DNA of 63,514 nucleotides, from positions 1-63,514 of the forward strand of contig CANGMZ010000003.1 of assembly GCA_947454715.1 (NCBI GenBank), in the 5' to 3' direction. The notes beneath the pieces were generated by a model, which was not told where the DNA came from, ran no database searches, and was given only the letters and a program-made list of their open reading frames with translations. A program made the translations under genes and the position numbers. Source of the stretch: Chitinophagaceae bacterium (GTDB taxonomy: Bacteria; Bacteroidota; Bacteroidia; Chitinophagales; Chitinophagaceae). Every line of letters begins with the position of its first letter. Within the stretch, counting starts at the first letter, position 1. This document shows, piece after piece, positions 4,298 through 63,147 of the stretch.

Positions 4298-4600
4298 TTA
4301 AATATTTTTTATGTCGCTAATTTTATCATACTGCTTATGGGTGCCAATAAACTTTATATACCCGATATGAATATCATATCTGAAGAATACGATGAGCCTG
4401 TATTTATTTTGACATATATTAAATACGATTCTGCCATTTCCTACTTGGTCAGAGTCGGTAAAGTAATTGGTGATTTCATGCGGGCTGCTCCAGTCTTTTT
4501 CTGTAATAACCTTGTACCAAGCTTTTAATTGTTGCTCGGCATCCTTGTATTCCGGCTTTTCCCAAAATGCTTTAAGTGTGCCTTTGGCTATGATCCTCAT
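4298..4600 (-). CDS. higB: HigB-family toxin (RelE-like mRNA interferase)
   Basis: 100 residues matching the HigB toxin family (PF09907): an N-terminal RIIAKGTLKAFWEKPEYKDAEQQLKAWY segment, a central NGRIVFNICQNKYRLIVFFRY core and the IGYIKFIGTHKQYDKI end. Family members cleave mRNA, usually in a ribosome-dependent way. The basic residues of the C-terminal half (K, R, H) are where catalytic residues lie in RelE-fold toxins. It is the first gene of a two-gene operon with higA. The start follows a TATTTTTA -7-like element by 7 nt. The reading frame is intact, so the toxin is probably functional and held in check by HigA. Confidence 0.92.
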   Translation of the reverse strand: MRIIAKGTLKAFWEKPEYKDAEQQLKAWYKVITEKDWSSPHEITNYFTDSDQVGNGRIVFNICQNKYRLIVFFRYDIHIGYIKFIGTHKQYDKISDIKNI

Positions 4601-4607
4601 ATTGGTG

Positions 4608-4643
4608 TAAAAATACTAAAAACTTCCCATAATGGGAATTTTT
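4608..4643 (-). promoter_or_regulatory. higBA promoter and autoregulatory operator
   Basis: A perfect palindrome, TTCCCATAATGGGAA (4624-4638), is extended with one mismatch by A and T tracts to 4619-4643. A -7-like element (TATTTTTA on the minus strand, 4608-4615) lies just downstream, 7 nt before the higB ATG. The palindrome therefore sits where the -33/-7 spacer would be, so HigA binding should exclude RNA polymerase. Confidence 0.75.
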
Positions 4644-19979: not shown

Positions 19980-20570
19980 TCACTTCTTTATTTCATTTTT
20001 GACAAAAGAAATCAAATCATCAATTAACTCGTAGTAACATTGGTTCAGTTGATAAAATTGTGATACAAATATTTCGTAGGCTTTTTCAGGTGGTGGCATG
20101 TGTGCTGCTCTTCTTGAAAGCCCTGTCAGTGAACGTTCCATGCCTTTGATGGTGCGATAGCCGTATAGCCAGTTATGTTCCTGCATGTGAGGAAAATATG
20201 CAGCAAAAGCTGCCGGAAAATATGCAGAGTTAACAGATAATTTTTGATAAGTTTCTTTTGAAAATATTTCCAGCTCGGGGTAGCCCGGGAACATTTTAGG
20301 GTCATTAGCCAGAAAATGATCATATAAGGTATCCATAATGGCACCGGCATACAGACCATAATCTTCTCTAAAAAATATTTTGGCTCTTCTTGTAGCAGAG
20401 TGGTTGTCAGAAAATTCATCGATCTTTCTGTGGAGCATAATACCTTTCCAAATCTCAGGTGGGTAGTGTTCTTGTGCTACCAATTTACCTTTTACATGAT
20501 CCCCGATCATGTTGCCGGTGAGGATGTTTGTATCTCCGAAAGATAGATATGCGTGCCCCAGATAATTCAT
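19980..20570 (-). CDS. acpH: Acyl-carrier-protein phosphodiesterase (AcpH/DUF479 family)
   Basis: 196 residues matching the AcpH family: N-terminal MNYLGHAYLSFGD with the conserved His, then TGNMIGDHVKG, the HRKIDEFSD metal-site motif and AGAIMDTLYDHFLA. The enzyme removes 4'-phosphopantetheine from acyl carrier protein, although function outside E. coli is less tested. It lies 69 nt downstream of the recN stop's upstream neighbour region and reads in the same direction as recN. A TAGCTTCG -7-like element lies just 4 nt before the ATG, suggesting its own promoter with almost no leader. Confidence 0.85.
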   Translation of the reverse strand: MNYLGHAYLSFGDTNILTGNMIGDHVKGKLVAQEHYPPEIWKGIMLHRKIDEFSDNHSATRRAKIFFREDYGLYAGAIMDTLYDHFLANDPKMFPGYPELEIFSKETYQKLSVNSAYFPAAFAAYFPHMQEHNWLYGYRTIKGMERSLTGLSRRAAHMPPPEKAYEIFVSQFYQLNQCYYELIDDLISFVKNEIKK

Positions 20571-20639
20571 ATTGCGAAGCTACATTTTAAATATTAAATG
20601 TAGGATAAGGCAATATTGTGGAATGTGTTAATGTTTGGA

Positions 20640-38803: not shown

Positions 38804-38811
38804 TATCTTTG
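38804..38811 (+). promoter_or_regulatory. -7 element (TATCTTTG) of bamD
   Basis: Exact TAnnTTTG match ending 9 nt before the ATG at 38821, predicting a leader of only a few bases. Confidence 0.55.
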
Positions 38812-38820
38812 TCACCCTAT

Positions 38821-39636
38821 ATGCAGTTACGCGTTAAAAATTTATTGTATTTGTTTTTAGGCCTTGTGATGTTCAGCTCATGCGGGAACTTCGAGAAGGT
38901 TAGAAAAAGCAGTGACGTCAACTATAAGCTGACGAAGGCGAACGAATACTTCGACAAGAAGGATTATACGCATGCATACGAGCTGTACAAGGATTTGATG
39001 CCTATCATGAAGAGTACACGTAATTTTGAAGCGTTGTATTATAGGTATGCGTACACGTTTTACTACATGAAGGCATACATTGATGCATCTTACAATTTCA
39101 AAAACTTTACTGAATATTTCCCTACAAGCAAGCTGTCTGAAGAATGTGAGTTCATGAGTGCTGTGTGTTTGTATAAATATGCACCAAAATATACACTTGA
39201 CCAGACGAATTCAATAAAGGCATTGGAAGCATTGCAATCTTATGTGAACAGATACCCGAATTCAACAAGAGTAGCTGAAGCCACTAAGTACATTGATGAG
39301 AGTCACAAGAAATTAGAGACTAAGGAGGCGGATGCTGCGAAACTGTATTTCAATATCAGTCAGTTTAAAGCGGCAACTGTGGCTTATAAAAGTGTTTTAC
39401 GTAATTACCCTGAATCAGCGAACAGCGATTTGTATCAGTTCATGATTATGAAGGCAATGTACAAATATGCAAAAGCAAGTGTACCTGAAAAGCAGGAAGA
39501 GCGCTATGCGAATGCAATAAGTGCATACAGGGAGTTAAAAGATAATTATCCGAAATCGAAATATCTTTCTGAAGCGGAGCAATTAAATACAGAAGCAAAT
39601 AATAACGTCAAAAAAATACGCGATGAGCACAAGTAA
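38821..39636 (+). CDS. bamD: Outer membrane protein assembly factor BamD
   Basis: 271 residues from the ATG at 38821; an in-frame TTG four codons earlier is less likely, because it falls inside the TATCTTTG promoter motif. A lipobox (MFSSC, Cys21) marks it as a lipoprotein. Tetratricopeptide-like helical repeats follow (DYTHAYELYKDLMPI, NSIKALEALQSYVNRYP, QFKAATVAYKSVLRNYP, ERYANAISAYRELKDNYP). It works with BamA to insert outer-membrane beta-barrel proteins. The 3' end overlaps the start of the rpoZ-like gene by 14 nt, as commonly seen for this pair in Bacteroidota. Confidence 0.93.
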   Translation: MQLRVKNLLYLFLGLVMFSSCGNFEKVRKSSDVNYKLTKANEYFDKKDYTHAYELYKDLMPIMKSTRNFEALYYRYAYTFYYMKAYIDASYNFKNFTEYFPTSKLSEECEFMSAVCLYKYAPKYTLDQTNSIKALEALQSYVNRYPNSTRVAEATKYIDESHKKLETKEADAAKLYFNISQFKAATVAYKSVLRNYPESANSDLYQFMIMKAMYKYAKASVPEKQEERYANAISAYRELKDNYPKSKYLSEAEQLNTEANNNVKKIRDEHK

Positions 39637-40828: not shown

Positions 40829-40923
40829 CATAGATATAAGTGTTGTATCAAACAATATTTTATTGAAGCAGGTAGGTTTAAAATTATTGATAGCTAGCTA
40901 TAGTTTATTTATCTTTACGGGTA

Positions 40924-46650: not shown

Positions 46651-46777
46651 CAAGGGCGCGAAATTAAGCAAATGCAAGTGGAAATAGTAAAATATGAGCG
46701 TTGCCTCCAAAATCATTCTGTTAAGTATGGGAGGAAGAGGAGCATATTAGGTTAACGTCCGGTTTTGAAAATAGGCT

Positions 46778-46785
46778 TAACTTTG
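46778..46785 (+). promoter_or_regulatory. -7 element (TAACTTTG) of feoA
   Basis: Exact TAnnTTTG match ending only 4 nt before the ATG at 46790, so transcription would begin at or next to the start codon. Confidence 0.55.
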
Positions 46786-46789
46786 TAGT

Positions 46790-47035
46790 ATGGTGGATGA
46801 AGAAAAGGCGATCAGGCTATCTCAATTGGCTGCCGGTACAAAGGCGGTGATACATAGCCACGATGAGAGTGAGTTTCAGCTGACCCTGATGGAGATGGGC
46901 TGCATACCCGGAGAGCCGGTATGGGTGGAGATGATAGCCCCTCTTGGTGACCCAATGGCGATACAGATTGCGGGCTACTACCTGAGCCTCAGGAAGAAGG
47001 ATGCTGATAAGATCTGGGTTACATTAAGTAAATAA
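46790..47035 (+). CDS. feoA: Orphan FeoA-domain protein
   Basis: 81 residues of the FeoA SH3-like domain: AIRLSQLAAGTKAVIHSH, the ligand-loop LTLMEMGCIPGEPVWVEMIAPLGDPMAIQIAGYYLSLRKKDADKIWV. FeoA normally supports the FeoB ferrous iron permease, but no feoB is next to it here; FeoA can also be a lone regulatory domain. The start is preceded by an almost contiguous promoter motif (46778-46785). About 130 nt separate it from the following lipoprotein gene. Confidence 0.88.
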   Translation: MVDEEKAIRLSQLAAGTKAVIHSHDESEFQLTLMEMGCIPGEPVWVEMIAPLGDPMAIQIAGYYLSLRKKDADKIWVTLSK

Positions 47036-48079: not shown

Positions 48080-48214
48080 ATGCTTAAAATTAAGCGCATC
48101 TACCGTTCGTGAACTTTTACGACCGTTGGTGAACAATATTCGGTAAGGAAGTAAGTGGCAATGTACTTTTGGGATGAGGTTAGAAAGAAAAAATTGTGAG
48201 TTGTACAATAAAAT

Positions 48215-48222
48215 TACATTTG
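48215..48222 (+). promoter_or_regulatory. TAnnTTTG motif (TACATTTG) with TTG at -33 spacing, before the NHL gene
   Basis: TTG at 48194-48196, then 18 nt, then TACATTTG, a good match for both promoter elements. The motif ends only 2 nt before the ATG at 48225, so either the start lies further downstream or the true promoter is elsewhere. Confidence 0.4.
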
Positions 48223-48224
48223 CC

Positions 48225-49433
48225 ATGGAACTCAAAGCCATAACTCGGAAAACACTTTTAATTTTAATATTATTTGTTGTTGCATTTGTAAGCAATATCA
48301 ATAAGGTTGCGGCGCAAATGATCATTACTTATGCCGGCACTGCCGATGTAGGCTACAATGGGGAGAATCTGAAAGCAACGGACACTCGCCTTGATGGACC
48401 TGCTGCCGGAGTGATAGATGCATCCGGCACGCTTTATTTTACAGATGTAAATGGGAACAGGGTGCGTAAAATATCTCCTGCGGGTATTGTTACTACAATT
48501 GCAGGTACAGGAGAATCAGGTTATACAGCTGACGGAGAAAAGGCATTTACTGCAAGGATTACACAACCGGCAGGTATTGTTGTAGATGCAGCAGGTAATG
48601 TTTATTTCTCTGAGCGGGTTAATAATGTGGTGCGTAAGGTAGATAAGGTCGGAATACTTACTACTGTTGCCGGTAATGCTACGGGAGGGTTTAGTGGTAA
48701 TGGCGGCCCTGCAACCAAGGCCCAATTACAAAGCCCGGGAGCATTGGCTATTGACAAAGAAGGTAATCTTTATATAGCTGATGCCGACAATAATTGTATC
48801 AGAAAAGTAAGTACAACAGGCGTTATCACTATGTATGCAGGAAATGGTTTTGCTGCGGGTACAGGAACCGGAGGTTATAGCGGGGACGGAGGTAAGGCTA
48901 TATTGGCAAAATTGAATCAGCCGGATGGGTTAAGCATAGATAATGAAGGCAACTTACTCATCTCAGATTGTTTTAATCACTGCATACGTAAGGTAGATAA
49001 ACAGGGTATTATCTCAACTATAGCCGGCACAGGAAATGGCGGGTATAATGGAGATAATGGAAAAGCAAAGATGGCAATGTTGCAATATCCTTATGGCATT
49101 GCTGTTGATAAGAAGGGCTACATATATGTTGCTGACCATGGTAATAACCGTATTCGTATGATAGATGGCAATGGTTTTATCACTACAATTGCCGGAAGTG
49201 GCACAGCGGGTTACGAAGGTGAGGGTGGTCCGGCAGTAAATGCATTGATCAACAAGCCAACATTCGTAACTATAAGTGCGGCAGGAGATATATACATAGG
49301 CGATAATCAGAATGGGCGCATAAGAGTAATCACTTACAGTGGTTCTAATGTTATTGTAAGTGGTCATCAATTGGCACCAGCAGCTACTCATGTATCTGCT
49401 GGAAGTGTGTCCAGTTCAGCTTCAGGTCAATAG
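48225..49433 (+). CDS. NHL-repeat beta-propeller protein (exported)
   Basis: 402 residues from the ATG at 48225, chosen because it begins a signal peptide (MELKAITRKTLLILILFVVAFVSNINKVAAQ). An in-frame ATG at 48174 would add 17 charged residues in front. At least five NHL repeats (e.g. IDKEGNLYIADADNNCIRKVS, VDKKGYIYVADHGNNRIRMID, each preceded by TxAGxGxxGYxGDGGxA) form a propeller. There is no T9SS sorting domain; the Ser/Ala-rich tail SAGSVSSSASGQ ends the protein. Surface or periplasmic binding is likely, but the ligand is unknown. Confidence 0.85.
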   Translation: MELKAITRKTLLILILFVVAFVSNINKVAAQMIITYAGTADVGYNGENLKATDTRLDGPAAGVIDASGTLYFTDVNGNRVRKISPAGIVTTIAGTGESGYTADGEKAFTARITQPAGIVVDAAGNVYFSERVNNVVRKVDKVGILTTVAGNATGGFSGNGGPATKAQLQSPGALAIDKEGNLYIADADNNCIRKVSTTGVITMYAGNGFAAGTGTGGYSGDGGKAILAKLNQPDGLSIDNEGNLLISDCFNHCIRKVDKQGIISTIAGTGNGGYNGDNGKAKMAMLQYPYGIAVDKKGYIYVADHGNNRIRMIDGNGFITTIAGSGTAGYEGEGGPAVNALINKPTFVTISAAGDIYIGDNQNGRIRVITYSGSNVIVSGHQLAPAATHVSAGSVSSSASGQ

Positions 49434-49453: not shown

Positions 49454-50626
49454 TTACAGGCAAGACAGAAGTATTTGACAAGCTTTGTGAATTTCATCGT
49501 GTGTTATTGTCAGCGGTGGTGCTATTCTTATGCAGCCGGGTGCAAAGAGAAACCAATCTGAAAACAATCCTTTATCCAGACATTTATGCAATGTCTGCTG
49601 CACCAACTCAGGGTTTTCCAGATCAATAGCCATTAACAGACCAGCACTTCTGATCGCTTTGATAGATGGATGTTGTAGTAAAGTCAAGAACAGTTGTTCT
49701 TTTTCAGCTACACCTGCTACAATATGTTCATTGTGCAACACCTGCATACCTGCCATGCCGGCAGCACAGCAAACCGGATGGCCACCAAAAGTAGAAATAT
49801 GCCCCAATACCGGGTCGAAGCCAAATGTGGACATAATAGCTTGAGAGGAGATAAATGCCCCCAATGGCATTCCGCCACCTAATGCCTTACCCAGTAACAC
49901 TATATCCGGAGTAACATTGTAGTGCTCAAAGCCCCATAGTTTGCCTGTGCGACCAAAACCGCATTGTATTTCATCAAATATCAGCAGCGTACCTGTTTCG
50001 GTACACTTTATACGAAGTCTTTGTAACCAGTTGTTTTGAGGAACAATTACACCTGCTTCTGCCTGAATGGTTTCAACAATGACGCAGGAAGTTTGCTGAT
50101 TTATTGCATCGATGAGTTCATCTGAATTATAATCATAGTGCCAAACACCCGGTAATAGCGGTCTGAATGCGTTGCGCCAATATTCATCACCCATAACGCT
50201 CAATGCGCCCATGGTGTGCCCATGATAGCTATTGTTGCAGCAGATTACATCTGTGCGTCCGGTATATCTTCTGGCGAGTTTTAAAGCCCCGTCAGTAGCT
50301 TCTGATCCGGAATTGGTGAAGTAGATACAGTCAAGGTGCTCAGGAAGGCAAGCTGCCAACATTTCGGCATACTTTACCTGTGGGCTTTGCACCAACTCCC
50401 CATAAACCATAATGTGCAAATATTGTTGCGACTGCTCTTGTATCGCTTTTACAACTGCAGGGTGGCAATGCCCAATATTGCAGACACTGATGCCGCCAAT
50501 CACATCGAGATATGCTTTGCCATCAACACCGTAAAGGTAATTGCCTGCTGCGGATGTAATTTCAATACCTACAGGAGCAGGTGATGTCGGTGCTAGGTGT
50601 TGCTGAAAGAGTTGGCGATTATTCAT
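49454..50626 (-). CDS. Class III PLP aminotransferase (acetylornithine/ornithine type)
   Basis: 390 residues of the class III family: [74 protein letters not shown], and the PLP lysine in [14 protein letters not shown]. The [15 protein letters not shown] motif follows. The likely substrate is an omega-amino acid such as acetylornithine or ornithine, but no arginine genes are nearby. It overlaps the upstream cca stop by four bases (ATGA), so it is expressed with a tRNA-repair gene rather than a metabolic pathway. Confidence 0.88.
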
Positions 50627-52041
50627 TTTACAGGTTCAATATTTAATTCTTTTGCTTTATTTATAAGCAATGTATGTGCTGCCTCGTAGGTATTAGGTAT
50701 CACACCGTCGAGTATGGCTTCCCTTATTGTTGTTTTGAGTACACCAACTTCACGAGAAGGGGAGAGATTGAACATGGCCATAATCTCATCTCCGGATATT
50801 GGTGGCTGCCAGTTTCTGACCTTGTCGCTTTCTTCTACAGCAATGAGTCTTTCTTTTACCAACTCAAAGTTTTCCAGATAGCGTTTTACCTTTAGTTTAT
50901 TCTTTGATGTGATGTCGCTTTCACACAGTATCATCAAGTCTTCCAGGTCTTCACCTGCATCGAAAAGCAGTCTGCGCATGGCAGAGTCGGTAATATCTTC
51001 TTTAGTAAGACTAATGGGGCGAAGGTGTAGCGAAACCAATTTGGCTACATACTTCATCTTCTCATTGAGGGGCAGTTTCAGTTGTTTGAAGATTTTAGGC
51101 GTCATTCTTTCGCCTACGACCTCGTGACCATGAAAGGTCCACCCGTGCCCATCTTCAAATTTCTTAGTGGCAGGTTTACCTATGTCGTGCAGTAAAGCAG
51201 CCCAGCGCAACCATAAGTCATTGCTCTTGGATGCAGTATTATCAATTACCTGCAGTGTGTGGTAGAAATTATCTTTATGCCCCTTGCCTTCTATTATTTC
51301 CACACCGGATAGTGCGACCATCTGCGGAAAGAAATGTTTGAGCAATCCGCTTTTGTAGAGTAGGTCAAGACCAATGGATGGTTTTGCTACCGACATAATT
51401 TTATTCAATTCATCGGTAATGCGTTCCTGAGAAATAATTTTAATTCTATCGCTGTTTCGGCAGATAGCTTCAAAAGTTTCAGGGAGTATCTGAAAGCCCA
51501 GTTGTGTTGCAAAGCGTATAGCCCGCATCATACGTAACGGGTCATCAGAGAAGGTAACATCAGGTCCCAGAGGTGTTCTGATTATTTTGTTCTTCAGGTC
51601 TTCCTGTCCGTTGAATGGGTCTGTTAATTTGCCATAATCTGCTTTGTTGAGGCTTATTGCCATTGCATTTATGGTAAAATCCCGTCTTAACTGATCGTCT
51701 TCTATTGTTCCGGGTTCTACTTCTGGATTTCTGGAATCAGCAGTATATGATTCTTTTCTTGCGCCCACAAATTCCACGTCAAAGTCGTGGTATCTGAAAT
51801 GAGCGGTGCCATAATTTTTGAAAAAGCTTACATGCATTTTGGGGTTTAATATAGCGGCTACTGCATGAGCCAATGCTATACCATCACCAGTGCAGACGAT
51901 ATCTGCATCCTTAGTTGGGCGGCCTAACAGTTTATCTCGCACAAAGCCACCAATAAGGTAGCAGCTGATATTCATTTCAGTTGCGGCCTTACCTACGGTT
52001 TCAAAAATCAGCAGTTCTTCGGGCGTGCAATCAATTTCCAT
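50623..52041 (-). CDS. cca: CCA tRNA nucleotidyltransferase with HD domain
   Basis: 472 residues. The N-terminal nucleotidyltransferase head has [23 protein letters not shown] with the DxD metal residues, [13 protein letters not shown] and [19 protein letters not shown]-terminal HD domain has [13 protein letters not shown]. It adds or repairs the CCA end of tRNAs. The combination with an HD domain is normal for class II enzymes. It is the first gene of a two-gene operon, starting 7 nt after a TAGCTTTG promoter element. Confidence 0.94.
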
Positions 52042-52048
52042 ACAGCGG

Positions 52049-52056
52049 CAAAGCTA
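52049..52056 (-). promoter_or_regulatory. -7 element (TAGCTTTG) of cca
   Basis: Exact TAnnTTTG match on the minus strand with 7 nt to the ATG. TTTC at about the -33 position (20-nt spacing) is a weak second element. Confidence 0.5.
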
Positions 52057-54657: not shown

Positions 54658-57600
54658 TTATTGTCCGAATATAAATCTCAATGTCAAGCCGGCCTTGGTA
54701 TTGGTAGTAGGGTATGACGTAGACACGTAAGGTATGGTCTGCTGACGGTCAAAGAAGAAGTGCAGGGTTAATTTAGAATTGACTGCATAATCTACTGACG
54801 GAGACACTCTCAGGACCTTTTGACCGCGCGATGTCACACTAATATTGTTTGCAAGGAATGTATTGCTGTTTTTGTCGTCACGCAAACCGATATCCATTTT
54901 GAAGATCAGTTCATTTTTCAGTTTTTGAATACCCATTATTTTGAAAGGCAGTTTTACTCCTTTCTTTCTGAATCCGAAACCAATAACATACTCAGTACTT
55001 GAGTTCTCACTTACCTGATAGTCGATAAGGCTCAAACTCATTGTCTTAGATTTTCTCAATTCGAATTTCGCTGTCATGTTATTCTTCAGCGCAACATCAA
55101 CACCTATCAGTGGATTAAATGCCTGAGAAATGGTAACGTTTGGTACCTGGAAGAAAGGCACGTAGTTATGCGAGTTAGAATCTATGAATGATGGGAAGCC
55201 CAGACCAAACAGGTCATTATAAAGTAATGACGAGTTAAAACCATTCATAGACATGCTGCCTGTATATGCATGGGTAAGGTTAAGATTATTGAGGTATTTT
55301 GCAAAGAACGGATATTTGCTCAGGCCATTATACGCTACCTTCCAGTTAGGCATCGGCACGAAATATTTGAACGGATTGTCTTGAATGCTGGTATGTGTAT
55401 AATCTATGAGTGCTTGTGATTCCGGTGCATTACCTGTGTATGCGGCTATAAACGATGGTACTAAAACATCTTGTGAAAATTGGGTATAGCCCTTAGCATA
55501 CTTAGGGTTTGCAGGGTCCGGTATACCACCTGTATATGGGTTGCTCTTACCTAATCGCCATGAAATTATTTCTCTGTTTGCAAGGAATTGATTGTAAACA
55601 TCTGAGTACACACCCGTGTTCTTGAAGATTGTTTTCACGGCAATATAACTCACATTGAACGACCCGTTTTCGTAAGGGTTAAAGTGATTGAATGTACCTG
55701 TACCGGTGTCTTTAAATAATTCGCTGTGCGATTTGCTGAATGTTTTTGTCAAAGACAGGTCTATTCTGAAATCTTTAAATGGTACCAATGTGGCACTGGC
55801 ACTAAGATTTTGAGAGTAGGTTTGCTGGAACTGTGCATTGAATAAAGAGTCACGACTAAGCTTACCTGCTGCTGCTTGTTGCTCTAACCATACGCTTGTT
55901 GGTTGGTAGCCATATACATAGTTAAAGCCCGGTGCATTAGAGTAATTATTCACACCCATAAAACGCGTACTGTCCAGATAGCCGGGTAGAATAGTTCCTG
56001 CTGTTTGTGTATAATTAATTGACACACGAGTAAGCATAGTTACCAGATGACCCGCTACCCGCTCCACTGTATTCAACTCAGGTAGCTTTGCTCTTCTGGC
56101 CTTACGTGCTGCTTTGCGCGCTTTTTTCTTTTTCAGTTTTTCAGCTCTTGCTTTAGCTCTGTCTAAATCCTCCTGCACTTGTACCAGTGAGTCTAGCTGC
56201 TCATCTGTCATACCTGCAGTGTTTATATTCTGGAAGATATTGCTTGTGCCCGGTCCTGCATTGGTAACAGGTAGGTTTGTGTTACCTGTAGATGTAACGC
56301 CTGCAGTGCTACCGGTTGTGTTATTTCCGGCATTGTTGGTGTTAGTACTTGTAGTCGGGTTGGCACCACCGGTTTTAGGGTTGCCAGCTCCTTTTATTGT
56401 GTTGCCGCTACCACCGGGCATACTGTTTGTTGGCATGCTGTTGGTAGGGTTGCTATTTGTAGGATTACTGCTAGTAGGGTTGTTTGAAGTTGGTGAGTTG
56501 TTGATAGCCGTAGAATTGCTGCCGCCGCCCTGCTGTCCCCCGGTATTGCCCCCATTGTTGCCCCCGGCTGTGCCATTACCGGCTCCGCTTGTAGGTGTAC
56601 TTGCAGGTGCGCCACCCGGAGCATTGCCGCCCGGGCCTCCAGCCATGCCATTGCCAACGTCGTCTACATCTCCCTGTATTTTTGAGCCGGGTAATAATTT
56701 GCTCTTGAGGTCTTGTGCCTTTGGTGGATTACTATCAGGTTTGCCAGGCATGTCGGACTTAGGAAGGTCAGGTGCTCCGCCCTTTGTTTTATTTGCTGCA
56801 GGTTTAACATTCACTGCTCTTAACCATCTCCATTTGCTGTAGAGTTTGTTGAAGTCCAGGTCGCCTGAAATTTGTTTAGTATTGGTGTTGCCAATAGTAT
56901 TACCTAATTCGTAGGCAACAGGGGCAGCTCCGGTCCAGTTATAAGTTGCAGAATAGCTCATTCTCACATTCATCCAGTCGGTAGCAGGCAACTTAGCAAG
57001 TGGCACTGTATAAGAGCTGTTGAATGTTTGGTTGTAAGCAGTAGTATGCCCGAATTTAGAGATAAGCTTAAGTATAGAATCTTTCTTTGCCTTACTATCT
57101 ATGCGACCATAAGGCTCATCTATGCGCGCCACATTGGTTGCAGTGTAATCAATTGATAATGCCTTAGTTATTTCCCATCTGGTGTTGTAGGTGCGTGTCC
57201 AGTTAAAGTTCTTATAGAAAGTAGAAGGACTATGGTAGTTTGTTCCGTCATTCAAATCACGAACTCTGGTTTCTTCTACAAGTCGGTTAAGGTCATTGCG
57301 CAGTGAGAAGCTTGATGGCAGCGGATTAAAATTAAAGTCTTTAGCTAATGCAAACCATTTTGACTTTGATTTAATTAGCTTCTTAAACGGCTCAATAGGC
57401 TTAGCTTTTATATTGTAGCTATAGTTCACCGCCATGCGCTGCGTATTAATATTATCGAGTGCAATGAGTGAGTTGTGTTTAAATTGATTATTGTAGGAGT
57501 ACGTGAAGTCAAAGTTTTTTACACTCCATGGCATTCTTGCTTTTTTGCTGGCAGGGTTACCATTGATACGTACATTGGTAAGGTTAAGACTGGTGATAGA

Positions 57601-60600
57601 AGTAAAATCTTGTGATGCTTTCTTAATAGAGTCCGCTTTAGCCGCATTTCCTGCTGAGTTCATGGCATCAGACAACAACACATCCTGATTATAAGGATTG
57701 TATTTCGGAGTACTTACGTTTTGGGTATAGCCTGCATAAACAGGAAGCTGAACGCCCCATGTGCGTGGCATCAGTTTACCCATATTCAGGTTAGTAGAAA
57801 CGTTGTATTGATAATAGTCGTCTTGAGAGCGTTGACCTATTTTTTGATCTATGCTACCGTAACCTTGCGAATGCATACTTCCCGATAGGTTCACATTGCC
57901 AAGGTCTGCTAATTGCACTGATACTTTACCAGCTGCTGCATAACCCGGTTGATCTTTTGTGCCTGCCATACGCATTTCATCAAACCAAACTTCCACACAT
58001 TTTGCTAAACCGTCGTCGCCGGGTGTAGTATTGCTTTTCTTAGGGTTGAACACACCCAACATGATGTCTTTAGCTCCCCCTATATTAGGGTTGCCCAATA
58101 CAACGATAGTGTTACCCTTGCTATCTGTGGTGTAGTAAGGAATATAAGATGGCAGGTTCTTTGCGTCACGTGCTTTTTTTGCTTCCACCAAATCCTGTAG
58201 CGTCAGGTTCATTTCATTGGCTGCTGGCCAGACTACATAATCAGGTTTTGCGCCAATAGCAGGTGTTACTGCCAATGGCATACGGTATTCGTAGTAGTTG
58301 CCGGTGAAGTCACTACCGATTCGGATGAACGCATCTAAATCGGCATCTTTCAGCGGAGCCTGACCATCCTGTGATTCCGCATGTATAAACATACGCAAGT
58401 AGTCGAATTGGCGCATATCTACATTCACTTCCTTGAATACACCGCGTGCATCGCCATCTTGTAACGCACAAGCTTTAAGTGCCAGTGATTGCTCATTAAG
58501 CTGAATTGCTGTACCTGTCTGTCCTGTTGTCAGTTGACGCTGCACTCCCGGAGGAATTACGTAAGGAATAGGTGTACGAGAAGCATTCTCTTCAATGCTT
58601 ACTGATGATACAGAGAAATCTGTTGTGCTTGCATTCTGTTGTGGCTGATTTTCTCCCGGAGTAGTCAAAGAGTAGTTGTATGTACGCCATTGGCTACGAC
58701 CCAGCTCCAGAGATGCGAAGCGCATAACTGTGCTGTCCTGCCATCCGCTAAGGAACATACGAATGAAGCGGATAGAACGGAAATCAGAAATACCACCTAC
58801 TACATGGTCATAATTGCGAATAGGTATTTTGAACTGATACCATTTTTCATTGGCTGTTTGACCATTAGGAAGCTTTACACTGCTGACTTGTTGACTTATG
58901 ATATAGTTACTACCTACAGCCATATTCAATGGGTCAAGATCCAGACGATACTGGTAGTAATTCTCAGCTTCATTCAGCGTATTATCTCTATTGATATCTT
59001 CAGACTCAGGAATGGTAGTTGCAGAGGTTGCATAAGCCGAATTCGGGTCTGTTACCGGAGAGTTGCCTTCTGGGTTATTGTACCCTTTGTATCGACCTAG
59101 AATGCCGGTTTTATTGGCATCGTAGTCTGTGCCTCTGTAATATTTATAGTCATCATTAGAAGGGTCTAATAATGCTTTCTGATATGCTGGGTTTGTTGCG
59201 CCAAGTCTGTTACGAAGAGCTGTAAGGAAAGAGTTGAATTGCACGGCTTCTTTCGTGTCATTCATTTCGTCATAGCCCACATCTTGTGCCGCACGTGCCG
59301 CAGGGTCATTATCAAAAGCCCTGGTAATCTGCTGTTGGAAACGAGGTACATATCCCCATATTGTGGTATCTACCTTCTGCTGATCGAAAGGATAGGGTAC
59401 CCCATTTTCAAATGACATTCTTGAGTCTTTTAATACATCTTCTGATACAGACCCCAGATTGATAAACAATGAACCACCAGTAGGTGAGCCATTGGCAAAT
59501 GGATCCATCATCCAGAACTGCACATATTGCACGTTTGATGCTTCAAAGTCTGTATTGTCTACCGGGCGCATGATACCGCCCCATCTGTCTTTAGGGTTGG
59601 TAAGCTTACCGCTATCATCAATATGTACTGCGTCGTAGTTGTAAGGACCTCTGTCTTTGGGGAAGAAGCTAAGGTCAAATGTACTTAGAGAGGTTTGCAG
59701 TGATTGTGTTGGTCTGTTAGGGAATACATCTTTTACCTGTACCAATCTGATAAAGTGCTGCGCACTATCATTTTTTACATAATCCGGTACACCCTGACCC
59801 GGATCTACCAGAGTAGGTTCTATGCTGTACCAGGCTAGCTTAGCTCTGTTTTCACCATACTTCAATTGGTCGCTAAGTGCTGCTTCGGGGAATAACAGTT
59901 TACCTGCTTTATTAGTTGCTCCAAATGGCGTAGATGCCAAAGACCATGCTTGAGCAGGGAATCTCATATCGTAGCTGCTGGTAGTTCCTTCAAAGTCATC
60001 GATATATACTGCTCCTTCCGGGTCAAGTGAGTTGATTTGTTTTGGGTGGCCCGGTAATATTGCAGCTACTTCACCGCTCATATTCACGAACGATGGTGAT
60101 GTTGTTGAGTAAATGGGCAGTTTGTCGAGTGTACGGGTAATGAATGGTGCTTCTGTCTGATAGTTAGCGTCTAAACCTAAAACTGTGTTCTTAATCGGGT
60201 CTTCACCAAATGATACTTTCTGAGTGAATGGTCTTTCGTTCAGTCGCATCATCGTACCTCCTAAAGTCAGTTTCTTGTTCATGTAGTAGTCAAAACGAGC
60301 ACCCATGAAGTTTTGCTGTTGGAAGCCGAAAGTAGAGTTGTCTTCGTATTGCACATTGATAGGAACACCTGAGCTGAGGATACCTGTGTTGAGAATTTTT
60401 AGTCTTCCTAAACCATACTCAATCTGGTAGTCCTGATTTTCTACAAGTTTTGTACCACCCGCAGTTACCGTTACAGAACCGGCAGGTATATTGAACCCAC
60501 CTAAGAATATTTCTGACGAAGAGGACGATTTGTAAGTACCCTTCATAATGTACCTGTTCAGTGCCTGAAACTGCTGTGCAATGGTTTTTGTAGAGTCATA

Positions 60601-62508
60601 CAATGCCTGAAAAATATACCTTCTCTGCAAGATAGGTGTAGCCGGTGCATCAATAGCTTTAGAAAGATCGCTACCGAATGGTTCCAAGACCGGGAATATG
60701 ATTTTTCCTTGTTGCATGTTAATGGTAATACCATCAACAAAGTCAAAGACCCCATCGGGAGAAGCCTCATTCTGTGAGTTGAGTCTATCTAAGTTAAGTA
60801 AAGATATAAATGGAATGCCTTTTTTAGGCCCTTCAGGGAAATAACGCTTGTCCCCGCCACCCGGGTCCTGATACATTACATTGAGGGTGAAATTGTCTTT
60901 CGTTAAACCGAAGCCACCTAAAGCATAAACGTTCTTCATCATCAGTTTCCATACCGGTAAGGCAGGTCTGTTAGACGTTCCTTTCATTAATTTCAGGTAA
61001 AGAACTTTAGGGTTAGTAGTATCTGGCGGTAAATCTTCTGCAAATTCACCTACTTGATAAACCTTTCCTTTGTAGGTATAACGATATGCTACACCCAATA
61101 CATCATCGGGGTTCATCTGCGTATGCAGCATAATGTAACCTAGCTGAGCATTGTAGTTATACTCTGTTGCTGCAAGCTGACGAGCTGTAGTACGTTCAAA
61201 ATCTTTGCCTAGCTCCAGGCCCAGTTGAGTTGCTGCGTTCGATGCATAACGTTGCTGGCGACCATTAGGTGTTTGTAACAGCTCAGTATACAGTCTGTTG
61301 CTGTTGTTGTCAGGCACACCATCACGAATGCCGGGAGCTCCATTATTCATTGATGGCATGTATGGGTTAGCTTCACCAAGATCTTGCAAACACAATACAT
61401 CACGTACTCCATTAACCGCACCTGTGCGGTTGGTAACCCAAACCTGTATTTTGTTGATTTGTACCTGTGAGTTGATTACCGGGAAATTCTGTAACGCAAC
61501 ATCATAACGATCGTGGAAATATTGTGATAAAAGGAAGTCTTTATTTTCTTCATAAGCATCGGCCTTGATACTGAACTGTTGTGCCTGAGATCCGCCTTGT
61601 ATTGTAAGGCTTTTTCGCTGTGATTTCTGCTGAGAGATAACGCCTGTTACCCATAAACGACCAAACTGTAACTGTGTTTTCAGACCAAATAAAGACTGCA
61701 CACCGCTTATAAGGTTACTTTTCAGTGGGAAACTCACATTACCGGCTTCTATTTTTTTGATCATCTCATCTTCCTTGCCGCTGTAGTCCAGCTTTTGCAT
61801 GTTCTGATAATCAAAAGTTGCTTTTGTATTGTTACTGATATTCAGTTTCAACTTGTCACCTACTGTTGCCAGCAAGTTCAGGTTCATCTGCATATCAAAG
61901 TCAAAGATTCCGTATTTCTGTGCTCGCTGCACAAGGGTGGGGTTTTTTATATTTTGCCAGTTGCCACCAAAAGTGACATCTACATTACCCTGAGGTTTTA
62001 CGGATATGGTGTTACTGCCGAAAATACGGTCAAACAAACCTTCTTTATACATTTGTGGCAAAGAAGGCTTTTTGTTAAACATCATCATGGCATCGAGCCT
62101 GCGTTGCCAGTATGCGTCATCATCAATTTTGCCTCTGTATTTTAGATAATCACTCAGGCTCATGTATGTTGGGTTCCTGTTATACATGGAGCCCATTTTG
62201 TCGCTATAGTAATATCTGTTAGAGTCTGCGTCGTATTCAAAGGTCTTTTTTTCCGTCTTTGGGTCGGCCAAATCTATTGATTTTGGTCGGTCAAGATCAG
62301 TGCGTGGGTCACCGGTTTTGTCATGAATAGGGAACTTCAGTTTGTGTGCGGTGTCTTCTGTTACAGTAGTATCAGTTTTAGTAGTATCGCCGGCAGGAAC
62401 AAAAAAGGGCAGGAATGGGCGGCGCGGATTGGCAGCTGCATTAATGATAAATGCAGCTAACCCTATGAAACATAATAGTTTATATCCAAAAAAACGCTTC
62501 GCCTTCAA
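54658..62508 (-). CDS. sprA: SprA/Sov, T9SS outer-membrane translocon
   Basis: 2616 residues, slightly above the ~2400 usual for SprA. The signal peptide (residues ~1-26, GYKLLCFIGLAAFIINAAA) is followed by the repeated barrel motifs of the family, e.g. NLLATVGDKLKLNISNNTKATFDYQNMQKL, MSGEVAAILPGHPKQIN, SLDPEGAVYIDDFEGTTSSYDMRFP and the C-terminal KLTLHFFFDRQQTIPYVS. SprA forms the giant beta-barrel through which T9SS cargo crosses the outer membrane and supports gliding. Residues ~1890-2140 are an unusual low-complexity linker. The start is a TTG preceded by an AGGA-like site; no ATG or GTG precedes it. Adjacent to ruvA, as commonly found. Confidence 0.95.
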   Translation of the reverse strand: MKAKRFFGYKLLCFIGLAAFIINAAANPRRPFLPFFVPAGDTTKTDTTVTEDTAHKLKFPIHDKTGDPRTDLDRPKSIDLADPKTEKKTFEYDADSNRYYYSDKMGSMYNRNPTYMSLSDYLKYRGKIDDDAYWQRRLDAMMMFNKKPSLPQMYKEGLFDRIFGSNTISVKPQGNVDVTFGGNWQNIKNPTLVQRAQKYGIFDFDMQMNLNLLATVGDKLKLNISNNTKATFDYQNMQKLDYSGKEDEMIKKIEAGNVSFPLKSNLISGVQSLFGLKTQLQFGRLWVTGVISQQKSQRKSLTIQGGSQAQQFSIKADAYEENKDFLLSQYFHDRYDVALQNFPVINSQVQINKIQVWVTNRTGAVNGVRDVLCLQDLGEANPYMPSMNNGAPGIRDGVPDNNSNRLYTELLQTPNGRQQRYASNAATQLGLELGKDFERTTARQLAATEYNYNAQLGYIMLHTQMNPDDVLGVAYRYTYKGKVYQVGEFAEDLPPDTTNPKVLYLKLMKGTSNRPALPVWKLMMKNVYALGGFGLTKDNFTLNVMYQDPGGGDKRYFPEGPKKGIPFISLLNLDRLNSQNEASPDGVFDFVDGITINMQQGKIIFPVLEPFGSDLSKAIDAPATPILQRRYIFQALYDSTKTIAQQFQALNRYIMKGTYKSSSSSEIFLGGFNIPAGSVTVTAGGTKLVENQDYQIEYGLGRLKILNTGILSSGVPINVQYEDNSTFGFQQQNFMGARFDYYMNKKLTLGGTMMRLNERPFTQKVSFGEDPIKNTVLGLDANYQTEAPFITRTLDKLPIYSTTSPSFVNMSGEVAAILPGHPKQINSLDPEGAVYIDDFEGTTSSYDMRFPAQAWSLASTPFGATNKAGKLLFPEAALSDQLKYGENRAKLAWYSIEPTLVDPGQGVPDYVKNDSAQHFIRLVQVKDVFPNRPTQSLQTSLSTFDLSFFPKDRGPYNYDAVHIDDSGKLTNPKDRWGGIMRPVDNTDFEASNVQYVQFWMMDPFANGSPTGGSLFINLGSVSEDVLKDSRMSFENGVPYPFDQQKVDTTIWGYVPRFQQQITRAFDNDPAARAAQDVGYDEMNDTKEAVQFNSFLTALRNRLGATNPAYQKALLDPSNDDYKYYRGTDYDANKTGILGRYKGYNNPEGNSPVTDPNSAYATSATTIPESEDINRDNTLNEAENYYQYRLDLDPLNMAVGSNYIISQQVSSVKLPNGQTANEKWYQFKIPIRNYDHVVGGISDFRSIRFIRMFLSGWQDSTVMRFASLELGRSQWRTYNYSLTTPGENQPQQNASTTDFSVSSVSIEENASRTPIPYVIPPGVQRQLTTGQTGTAIQLNEQSLALKACALQDGDARGVFKEVNVDMRQFDYLRMFIHAESQDGQAPLKDADLDAFIRIGSDFTGNYYEYRMPLAVTPAIGAKPDYVVWPAANEMNLTLQDLVEAKKARDAKNLPSYIPYYTTDSKGNTIVVLGNPNIGGAKDIMLGVFNPKKSNTTPGDDGLAKCVEVWFDEMRMAGTKDQPGYAAAGKVSVQLADLGNVNLSGSMHSQGYGSIDQKIGQRSQDDYYQYNVSTNLNMGKLMPRTWGVQLPVYAGYTQNVSTPKYNPYNQDVLLSDAMNSAGNAAKADSIKKASQDFTSITSLNLTNVRINGNPASKKARMPWSVKNFDFTYSYNNQFKHNSLIALDNINTQRMAVNYSYNIKAKPIEPFKKLIKSKSKWFALAKDFNFNPLPSSFSLRNDLNRLVEETRVRDLNDGTNYHSPSTFYKNFNWTRTYNTRWEITKALSIDYTATNVARIDEPYGRIDSKAKKDSILKLISKFGHTTAYNQTFNSSYTVPLAKLPATDWMNVRMSYSATYNWTGAAPVAYELGNTIGNTNTKQISGDLDFNKLYSKWRWLRAVNVKPAANKTKGGAPDLPKSDMPGKPDSNPPKAQDLKSKLLPGSKIQGDVDDVGNGMAGGPGGNAPGGAPASTPTSGAGNGTAGGNNGGNTGGQQGGGSNSTAINNSPTSNNPTSSNPTNSNPTNSMPTNSMPGGSGNTIKGAGNPKTGGANPTTSTNTNNAGNNTTGSTAGVTSTGNTNLPVTNAGPGTSNIFQNINTAGMTDEQLDSLVQVQEDLDRAKARAEKLKKKKARKAARKARRAKLPELNTVERVAGHLVTMLTRVSINYTQTAGTILPGYLDSTRFMGVNNYSNAPGFNYVYGYQPTSVWLEQQAAAGKLSRDSLFNAQFQQTYSQNLSASATLVPFKDFRIDLSLTKTFSKSHSELFKDTGTGTFNHFNPYENGSFNVSYIAVKTIFKNTGVYSDVYNQFLANREIISWRLGKSNPYTGGIPDPANPKYAKGYTQFSQDVLVPSFIAAYTGNAPESQALIDYTHTSIQDNPFKYFVPMPNWKVAYNGLSKYPFFAKYLNNLNLTHAYTGSMSMNGFNSSLLYNDLFGLGFPSFIDSNSHNYVPFFQVPNVTISQAFNPLIGVDVALKNNMTAKFELRKSKTMSLSLIDYQVSENSSTEYVIGFGFRKKGVKLPFKIMGIQKLKNELIFKMDIGLRDDKNSNTFLANNISVTSRGQKVLRVSPSVDYAVNSKLTLHFFFDRQQTIPYVSTSYPTTNTKAGLTLRFIFGQ

Positions 62509-62528: not shown

Positions 62529-63107
62529 TTACAAAGCGCGAAGCGCCTGTTTTATAAGTTCCTCCACTGTCAAAGAAGATGCGTCTGCTATCTTTTTGAT
62601 CGCATTTTCAGCGATAGCCTTACTGATACCTAAATTGACTAATGCTATTAACGCATCTTCAGGTATTGTATTGTGTTTTGGAAGCGATAACGAGCCTGAA
62701 TTTTTCTGGCGTAATGTTTTGCCTTTCAGCTCTAAAATAATACGTTGGGCAGTTTTATTACCTATACCTTTTACTTTTTCAAGTGTTTTGGAGTCTTCGT
62801 GGAAGATGGCACGCTCCAATTCATCGGTAGTTAATGACGACAATATGATGCGTGCAGTAGCTGCACCCACTCCATTTATATTTAATAACTGACGGAAAGT
62901 GGCTCTTTCTTCTTCATCTGCGAACCCATAGAGTACCCATGCATCTTCCCGCACCTGTAGGTGGGTAAATAGGCGACATTTGTCCAGATTTACGATCTGG
63001 CTATAGGTTTGTAAGGTAATATTGACTTCGTAACCAACCCCTCCGGCCGACAGATATAGTAATGATGGTGACTTATATACCAGTTCACCCTCTAAAAATG
63101 CATACAT
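62529..63107 (-). CDS. ruvA: Holliday junction branch migration protein RuvA
   Basis: 192 residues. The N-terminal OB domain begins MYAFLEGELVYKSPSLLYLSAGGVGYEVNI, followed by two helix-hairpin-helix motifs (LLNINGVGAATARIIL and LEKVKGIGNKTAQRIILELKGK) and a flexible C-terminal RuvB-binding domain (~140-192). RuvA tetramers hold the four-way junction for RuvB. It is 20 nt upstream of sprA and probably co-transcribed. A TATTTTTG promoter motif lies 8 nt before the ATG, with a TTG at -33 spacing. Confidence 0.95.
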   Translation of the reverse strand: MYAFLEGELVYKSPSLLYLSAGGVGYEVNITLQTYSQIVNLDKCRLFTHLQVREDAWVLYGFADEEERATFRQLLNINGVGAATARIILSSLTTDELERAIFHEDSKTLEKVKGIGNKTAQRIILELKGKTLRQKNSGSLSLPKHNTIPEDALIALVNLGISKAIAENAIKKIADASSLTVEELIKQALRAL

Positions 63108-63115
63108 ACTTATTA

Positions 63116-63147
63116 CAAAAATAGTTTATTGCGCCCACAACAGGCAA
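63116..63147 (-). promoter_or_regulatory. ruvA-sprA promoter (TATTTTTG with upstream TTG)
   Basis: TATTTTTG (63116-63123, minus strand) matches TAnnTTTG, with TTG (63145-63147) 21 nt upstream at the -33 position. The motif ends 8 nt before the ruvA ATG. Confidence 0.6.

Follow-up and report, generated by a model that had tools for sequence, protein, structure and literature searches.

Sigma-A promoter boxes set against start codons point to leaderless and near-leaderless mRNAs for a substantial minority of Chitinophagaceae genes

A sizeable minority of genes in a Chitinophagaceae bacterium carry the sequence TAHHTTTG against their start codon, and these sites are likely to be sigma-A promoters of leaderless or near-leaderless mRNAs. 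We analysed a stretch of 63,514 nucleotides from this organism (the window), together with further stretches of its genome and samples of related genomes. Throughout, d is the number of nucleotides separating the G of the box from the start codon, and the near share is the portion of the box excess at d 4–54 that is found at d 4–9. On the best reading of the sequences, leaderless or near-leaderless sigma-A mRNAs would form a substantial minority, with near shares of 24–48% in four samples of the family and 5% in a more distant member of the class (G170).

Boxes in the window

The preliminary description of this DNA had placed exact TAnnTTTG motifs ahead of feoA, cca, ruvA, bamD and an NHL-repeat gene, and all five motifs and their distances proved correct (Table 1). 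Its one-mismatch versions ahead of pcm, higB, ribD and acpH are likewise present at the distances that it gave. The clustering of exact boxes at starts was also borne out. Four boxes (feoA, cca, ruvA and bamD) lie at d 4–9 where 0.11 are expected (Poisson p = 6e-6), and over the whole window the motif has 50 matches against 70.6 expected from shuffles, with at least 50 in 99 of 100 shuffles. Counted by gene, exact boxes at d 4–9 precede 3 of the 47 called starts, or 4 of 48 with feoA, which the gene caller missed.

Table 1 Boxes at start codons in the window and the genes that follow them
Feature	Position	Strand	d (nt)	Description
TAACTTTG, exact box	46778..46785	+	4	Ahead of feoA; predicted +1 is the A of AUG
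feoA	46790..47035	+		81 aa; Pfam FeoA, E 1.1e-17
TAGCTTTG, exact box	52049..52056	-	7	Ahead of cca; G within nn, doubtful
cca-like tRNA nucleotidyltransferase	50623..52041	-		Pfam PolyA_pol, PolyA_pol_RNAbd, HD
TATTTTTG, exact box	63116..63123	-	8	Ahead of ruvA
ruvA	62529..63107	-		Pfam RuvA_N, HHH_5, RuvA_C
TATCTTTG, exact box	38804..38811	+	9	Ahead of bamD
bamD-like gene	38821..39636	+		Pfam YfiO, E 2.3e-13
TACATTTG, exact motif	48215..48222	+	2	Ahead of the NHL-repeat gene; probably not its promoter
NHL-repeat gene	48225..49433	+		Pfam NHL, TEN_NHL
TATCTTTA, one mismatch	40910..40917	+	6	Ahead of pcm; gene matches Pfam PCMT
TAATTTCG, one mismatch	46659..46666	-	8	Ahead of ribD, ATG 46650; by eye; gene matches Pfam RibD_C
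TAGCTTCG, one mismatch	20575..20582	-	4	Ahead of ORF 19980-20570 (acpH in the preliminary description)
TATTTTTA, one mismatch	4608..4615	-	7	Ahead of ORF 4298-4600 (higB in the preliminary description)

Two of the exact motifs make poor examples. At the NHL-repeat gene, a d of 2 would set the +1 within the gene and d 0–3 is hardly enriched, so this case is unsupported. The box of cca is doubtful because its nn positions include a G, a base avoided there by true boxes; those of feoA, ruvA and bamD are free of it. The NHL-repeat gene is preceded by tandem in-frame pairs of box and ATG, each at d 2 (48164-48171 with ATG 48174, and 48215-48222 with ATG 48225; window 48164-48227), and by eye its ATG at 48225 starts an apparent signal peptide.

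Within the window, the one-mismatch boxes do not clearly exceed chance, with three seen at d 4–9 of the 47 called starts against 2.2 expected, and they are weak examples. Those of ribD and higB precede starts that the gene caller did not use. An Rfam scan of the window gave no matches. Directly downstream of ruvA lies a minus-strand ORF of 2616 aa (54658-62508), which is about the size of the SprA-type secretion proteins of Bacteroidota.

Distance profile across the genome

From the assembly (3.53 Mb, 230 contigs) we sampled about 24% of the genome, namely the window and 40 further stretches, which comprise 863,514 bases and 634 upstream regions. Starts came from a simple, codon-based gene caller that is blind to the motif, and the background was the mean of 300 permuted motifs. 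The preliminary description had proposed a genome-wide count of motif distances; run on this sample, it gave the anticipated excess within 10 nt of starts. The distances form two peaks, at d 4–9 (33 boxes, permuted motifs 2.5) and d 15–34 (89, permuted 12.0), with a dip at d 10–14 (5, permuted 2.2). The remaining ranges hold 5 boxes at d 0–3 (permuted 2.2), 27 at d 35–54 (permuted 9.8) and 34 at d 55–92 (permuted 20.8). Extrapolated from the sample to the whole genome, the excess over background at d 4–9 amounts to about 125 genes with an exact box.

The near peak has a sharp lower edge. We pooled five Chitinophagaceae samples: our own, Flavipsychrobacter stenotrophus, Chitinophagaceae bacterium LGM1, G115 and G033. 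The pooled set has 5 boxes at d 0–3 and 61 at d 4–7, including 28 at d 4 (p = 2.6e-13); from d 0 to d 5 the counts run 1, 2, 1, 1, 28 and 12. The mid range differs both from the near range (p = 5.6e-8) and from d 15–24 (p = 1.8e-4). Among 491 genes that flank feoA at 67 loci, with feoA itself removed, 1 box lies at d 0–3, 14 at d 4, 14 at d 5, 37 at d 4–9, 6 at d 10–14 and 29 at d 15–24, in a set that is partly homologous within itself and thus not wholly independent. With starts redefined as the first ATG of ORFs of at least 150 codons (560 ORFs), d 0–3 holds 4 boxes, d 4–9 27, d 10–14 9 and d 15–24 40, and the dip is weaker.

For Flavobacterium johnsoniae, the sigma-A (sigma-ABfr) box was revised from TTTG/TAnnTTTG to TAHHTTTG, and transcription starts 4–5 nt past the box, whose G is at −5 (PMC6847099). 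Transferred to our genome, this spacing predicts a +1 on the A of AUG at d 4. The edge at d 4 fits a transcriptional origin of the pattern, since at a d of 3 or below the mRNA would begin inside the gene, and the dip at d 10–14 corresponds to predicted leaders of about 6–10 nt.

Pfam look-up of 10 of the 11 d 4 genes in our own sample, which omitted the single GTG-start gene, returned ordinary cellular genes, e.g. UbiD, THF dehydrogenase/cyclohydrolase, class I tRNA synthetase (E/Q), DAHP synthase and DciA. No special functional class was evident among these 10 genes.

Sigma-A-like character of the near boxes

We compared near and far boxes in four samples with 1119 genes, 72 near boxes and 125 far boxes. 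G is absent from the nn positions in 67/72 near and 111/125 far boxes, against 346/609 motifs inside coding cores (p = 8e-12), and nn composition played no part in choosing the boxes. A pyrimidine is favoured after the box G, alike in both classes. When the word after TAnn was left free, TTTG still topped the enrichment at d 4–9 in our own sample, LGM1, G115, G041 and G101. In F. stenotrophus, G178 and G072 it came second, and in G033 and G170 it fell outside the nine best words. The sequences of the near boxes support the view that they behave like true sigma-A -7 elements. Near genes start with ATG in 70 of 72 cases, compared with 932 of 1047 other genes (p = 0.03), which suits leaderless mRNAs.

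Against the proposal, no peak of a −33 element (TTTG about 19–21 nt upstream), which is also weak in F. johnsoniae, was seen for either class, a purine was not favoured at the predicted +1 of boxes at d 5–9, where the bases are mixed, and the folding of the first 40 nt of near genes was no different.

Shine-Dalgarno-like words precede 39 of the 1119 genes, which is the level of shuffled sequence (45.3). The idea that leaderless use fits this lack of Shine-Dalgarno sites found no support, since most box-bearing genes look leadered (89 boxes at d 15–34 against 33 at d 4–9 in our own sample) and leaderless mRNAs do not explain the missing sites.

Conservation at individual genes

The box of feoA is conserved. 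Of 68 loci, the window among them, 63 carry an exact TAnnTTTG at d 4–7, most often at d 5 (43 loci) and otherwise at d 4 (8), d 6 (11) or d 7 (1), a figure that reflects conservation among related loci and not 63 independent events. Three further loci have a one-mismatch box at d 4–6; the exceptions include L081, which has no box, and the distant L087, with a box at d 27. The start at each locus was taken as the in-frame ATG closest to the aligned first residue, ignoring the motif. The nearest named relatives of this feoA are those of F. stenotrophus (91% identity) and Chitinophagaceae MAGs. A block resembling ATTTTTTAGGTGTA, about 25–45 nt upstream of feoA, is common to L048, L064-L066, L070, L071, L073, L075-L077 and L084, and is perhaps a putative regulator site.

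Beyond feoA, conservation of near boxes is thin. We rejected ruvA as a second conserved case, as none of 29 other loci has an exact box at d 4–9. Among 32 homologues of near genes, 29 of which are ruvA, 2 have a near box, 2 a far box and 28 none; 2 of the 3 homologues other than ruvA have a near box. One homologue of cca was found (L056), in which TAGCTTTG is kept at d 9. Homologues of bamD were matched in 40/40 family genomes.

The suggestion of near-leaderless mRNAs in the window is thus partly supported. The near boxes resemble sigma-A elements and their distances begin sharply at d 4, as expected of mRNAs that begin at the start codon. The suggestion appears right in kind for feoA and plausible for bamD and for ruvA, whose exact box is unconserved; it is doubtful for the NHL-repeat gene (d 2) and for cca with its G-bearing box.

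A related sequence, TAnnTTCG, was seen by eye ahead of ruvA, at d 4–6, in 13 of the 29 other loci of the family (L192, L194, L196-L200, L203, L205, L207-L209 and L211), and the window sites at 46659-46666 and 20575-20582 are tied to the same observation. At d 15–34 in our own sample, TTCG follows TAnn 11 times against 2.3 expected. TAnnTTCG could be either a variant of the sigma-A box or a box that another sigma factor uses.

Proposed initiation and alternative explanations

We propose that this bacterium, a Flavipsychrobacter-like one within the Chitinophagaceae, has the housekeeping sigma-A −7 box TAHHTTTG abutting the start codon in a sizeable minority of its genes. Polymerase would start about 5 nt past the box G, so that a box at d 4 would make the A of AUG the first base of the mRNA, whereas boxes at d 5–9 would give leaders of 1–5 nt. 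A ribosome carrying initiator tRNA would take the 5'-terminal AUG of the leaderless message. Alongside, a larger class of genes would have leaders of about 11–30 nt. Leaders of about 6–10 nt would be avoided, perhaps being unsuited to either route of initiation.

The near boxes might instead be promoters of a secondary or conditional kind, with many of the genes served mainly from a promoter farther upstream. Such an arrangement would suit the presence of near boxes in operon-internal genes (7/158, compared with 65/961 elsewhere; p = 0.38) and the poor conservation at ruvA and some other genes. The sharp onset at d 4, together with the conservation at feoA, nevertheless points to selection on an mRNA that starts at that position, and we consider this alternative unlikely.

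Far boxes are depleted from operon-internal genes (5/158, compared with 120/961 elsewhere), and this control fails to mark near boxes as promoters because they are not rarer there. The same result, along with the fixed spacing to the AUG, would be expected if the TTTG ahead of the AUG were a translation signal in the mRNA and not a promoter. Yet the full TAHHTTTG is required and the near boxes shun G at nn as far boxes do, which is a DNA rule of sigma-A promoters in F. johnsoniae (PMC6847099). Moreover, the published translation features of the phylum are A-rich, yet A is scarce upstream of near genes. A translation signal is an improbable origin of the pattern.

Mis-called start codons, with true starts downstream and ordinary leaders, are a very improbable source of the near boxes: the simple caller did miss feoA and pick a later ATG for ribD, but mis-calls would not yield a d 4 peak with almost nothing below it, the peak persists under a different start definition, and nearly all feoA loci agree on the start within one codon.

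Comparison with characterised systems

The leaderless promoters proposed here share with those of F. johnsoniae the −7 box and the avoidance of G at nn, and differ in placement: leaders longer than 10 nt make up 87% of those predicted in F. johnsoniae, whereas 24–48% of the box excess lies at d 4–9 in the four family samples (PMC6847099). In Bacteroides thetaiotaomicron about 3.7% of measured 5' UTRs are shorter than 10 nt (PMC7366714), and in Flavobacterium psychrophilum 5.5% are measured as leaderless (PMC9723704). Both have a near-leaderless class on the same kind of promoter, which would be several times commoner here, with the caveat that their values are measured and ours predicted from sequence.

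Leaderless genes of Actinobacteria and Deinococcus-Thermus likewise keep a promoter box close to the start codon at constant spacing, but theirs is Pribnow-like where ours is TAnnTTTG (PMC3160421). Of the 37 Bacteroidetes/Chlorobi genomes in the same survey (Zheng 2011), 1 was reported to have leaderless genes; the survey sought only Pribnow-like boxes, named that limit and judged large misses unlikely (PMC3160421). Our literature search, which covered few subscription papers and drew in part on the best hits, found no map of transcription start sites for Chitinophagaceae. The general idea is already in print, and the passages of Zheng and Omotajo consulted give no measurement of it for Bacteroidetes; as far as we searched, the placement of the −7 box and a figure for Chitinophagaceae are not.

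If our reading is true, the three model Bacteroidota with published 5'-end data, in which leaderless messages are rare, are not representative of the phylum. Gene-finding programs and expression vectors designed for Chitinophagaceae should then make room for promoters directly adjacent to the AUG. The differences between lineages would also give a natural setting in which to compare how ribosomes select leaderless or leadered messages when they lack Shine-Dalgarno pairing.

Near boxes in other lineages

We lean towards a wider form of this conclusion. In Chitinophagaceae and some other lineages of Bacteroidota, leaderless or near-leaderless mRNAs are predicted for between a quarter and a half of those genes in which a sigma-A box can be recognised, several times the level in model Bacteroidota. 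Leaders would fall in two ranges, 0–5 and about 11–30 nt, with an avoided range between them, and the share would vary by lineage. Such genomes would combine the absence of Shine-Dalgarno sites with two modes of translation start.

Within the family, the near share is 24% in our own sample (634 upstream regions), 31% in F. stenotrophus (152), 48% in LGM1 (172) and 46% in G115 (161). It is 24% in G178 of the same order (100 upstream regions), and in three genomes of the same class it is 33% (G041, 101), 38% (G072, 70) and 5% (G170, 166). The predicted value for G170 is close to that measured in F. psychrophilum (PMC9723704). The sample of G033, also of the family, is uninformative, with 2 boxes within 100 nt of 111 starts (C1 1-200000, L108-L117). 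The whole genome of G033 shows an excess at d 4, and this 200-kb stretch may be unusual. Samples of G045 (14 upstream regions) and of G101 with one contig of G136 (49) are too small to weigh.

Whole-genome pattern counts gave the ratio of sites at d 4 to the mean of d 9–14, tabulated for 82 of 198 counted genomes (families f1-f10, f22 and f23; the other 116 left out). The ratio is 1.70 in our own family (8 genomes), 1.66 in f3 (5), 1.51 in f4 (2), 1.44 in f8 (6), 1.32 in f10 (1), 1.27 in f5 (18), 1.25 in f2 (5) and 0.86 in f22, which lies outside the class (25). It reaches 3.0–4.7 in f6, f7, f9 and f23 (1, 1, 2 and 8 genomes). The eight genomes behind the named records have ratios of 1.3–2.4. 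In f23 the edge is not at d 4, since d 3 is raised too (144 sites against a d 9–14 mean of 43).

Among the tabulated families, f23 (G027, G059, G086, G101, G105, G113, G136 and G144, outside the class of the window) has the strongest excess 3–8 nt before ATG. In G144, 84 boxes lie 3–8 nt before an ATG and 19 lie at 9–14 nt.
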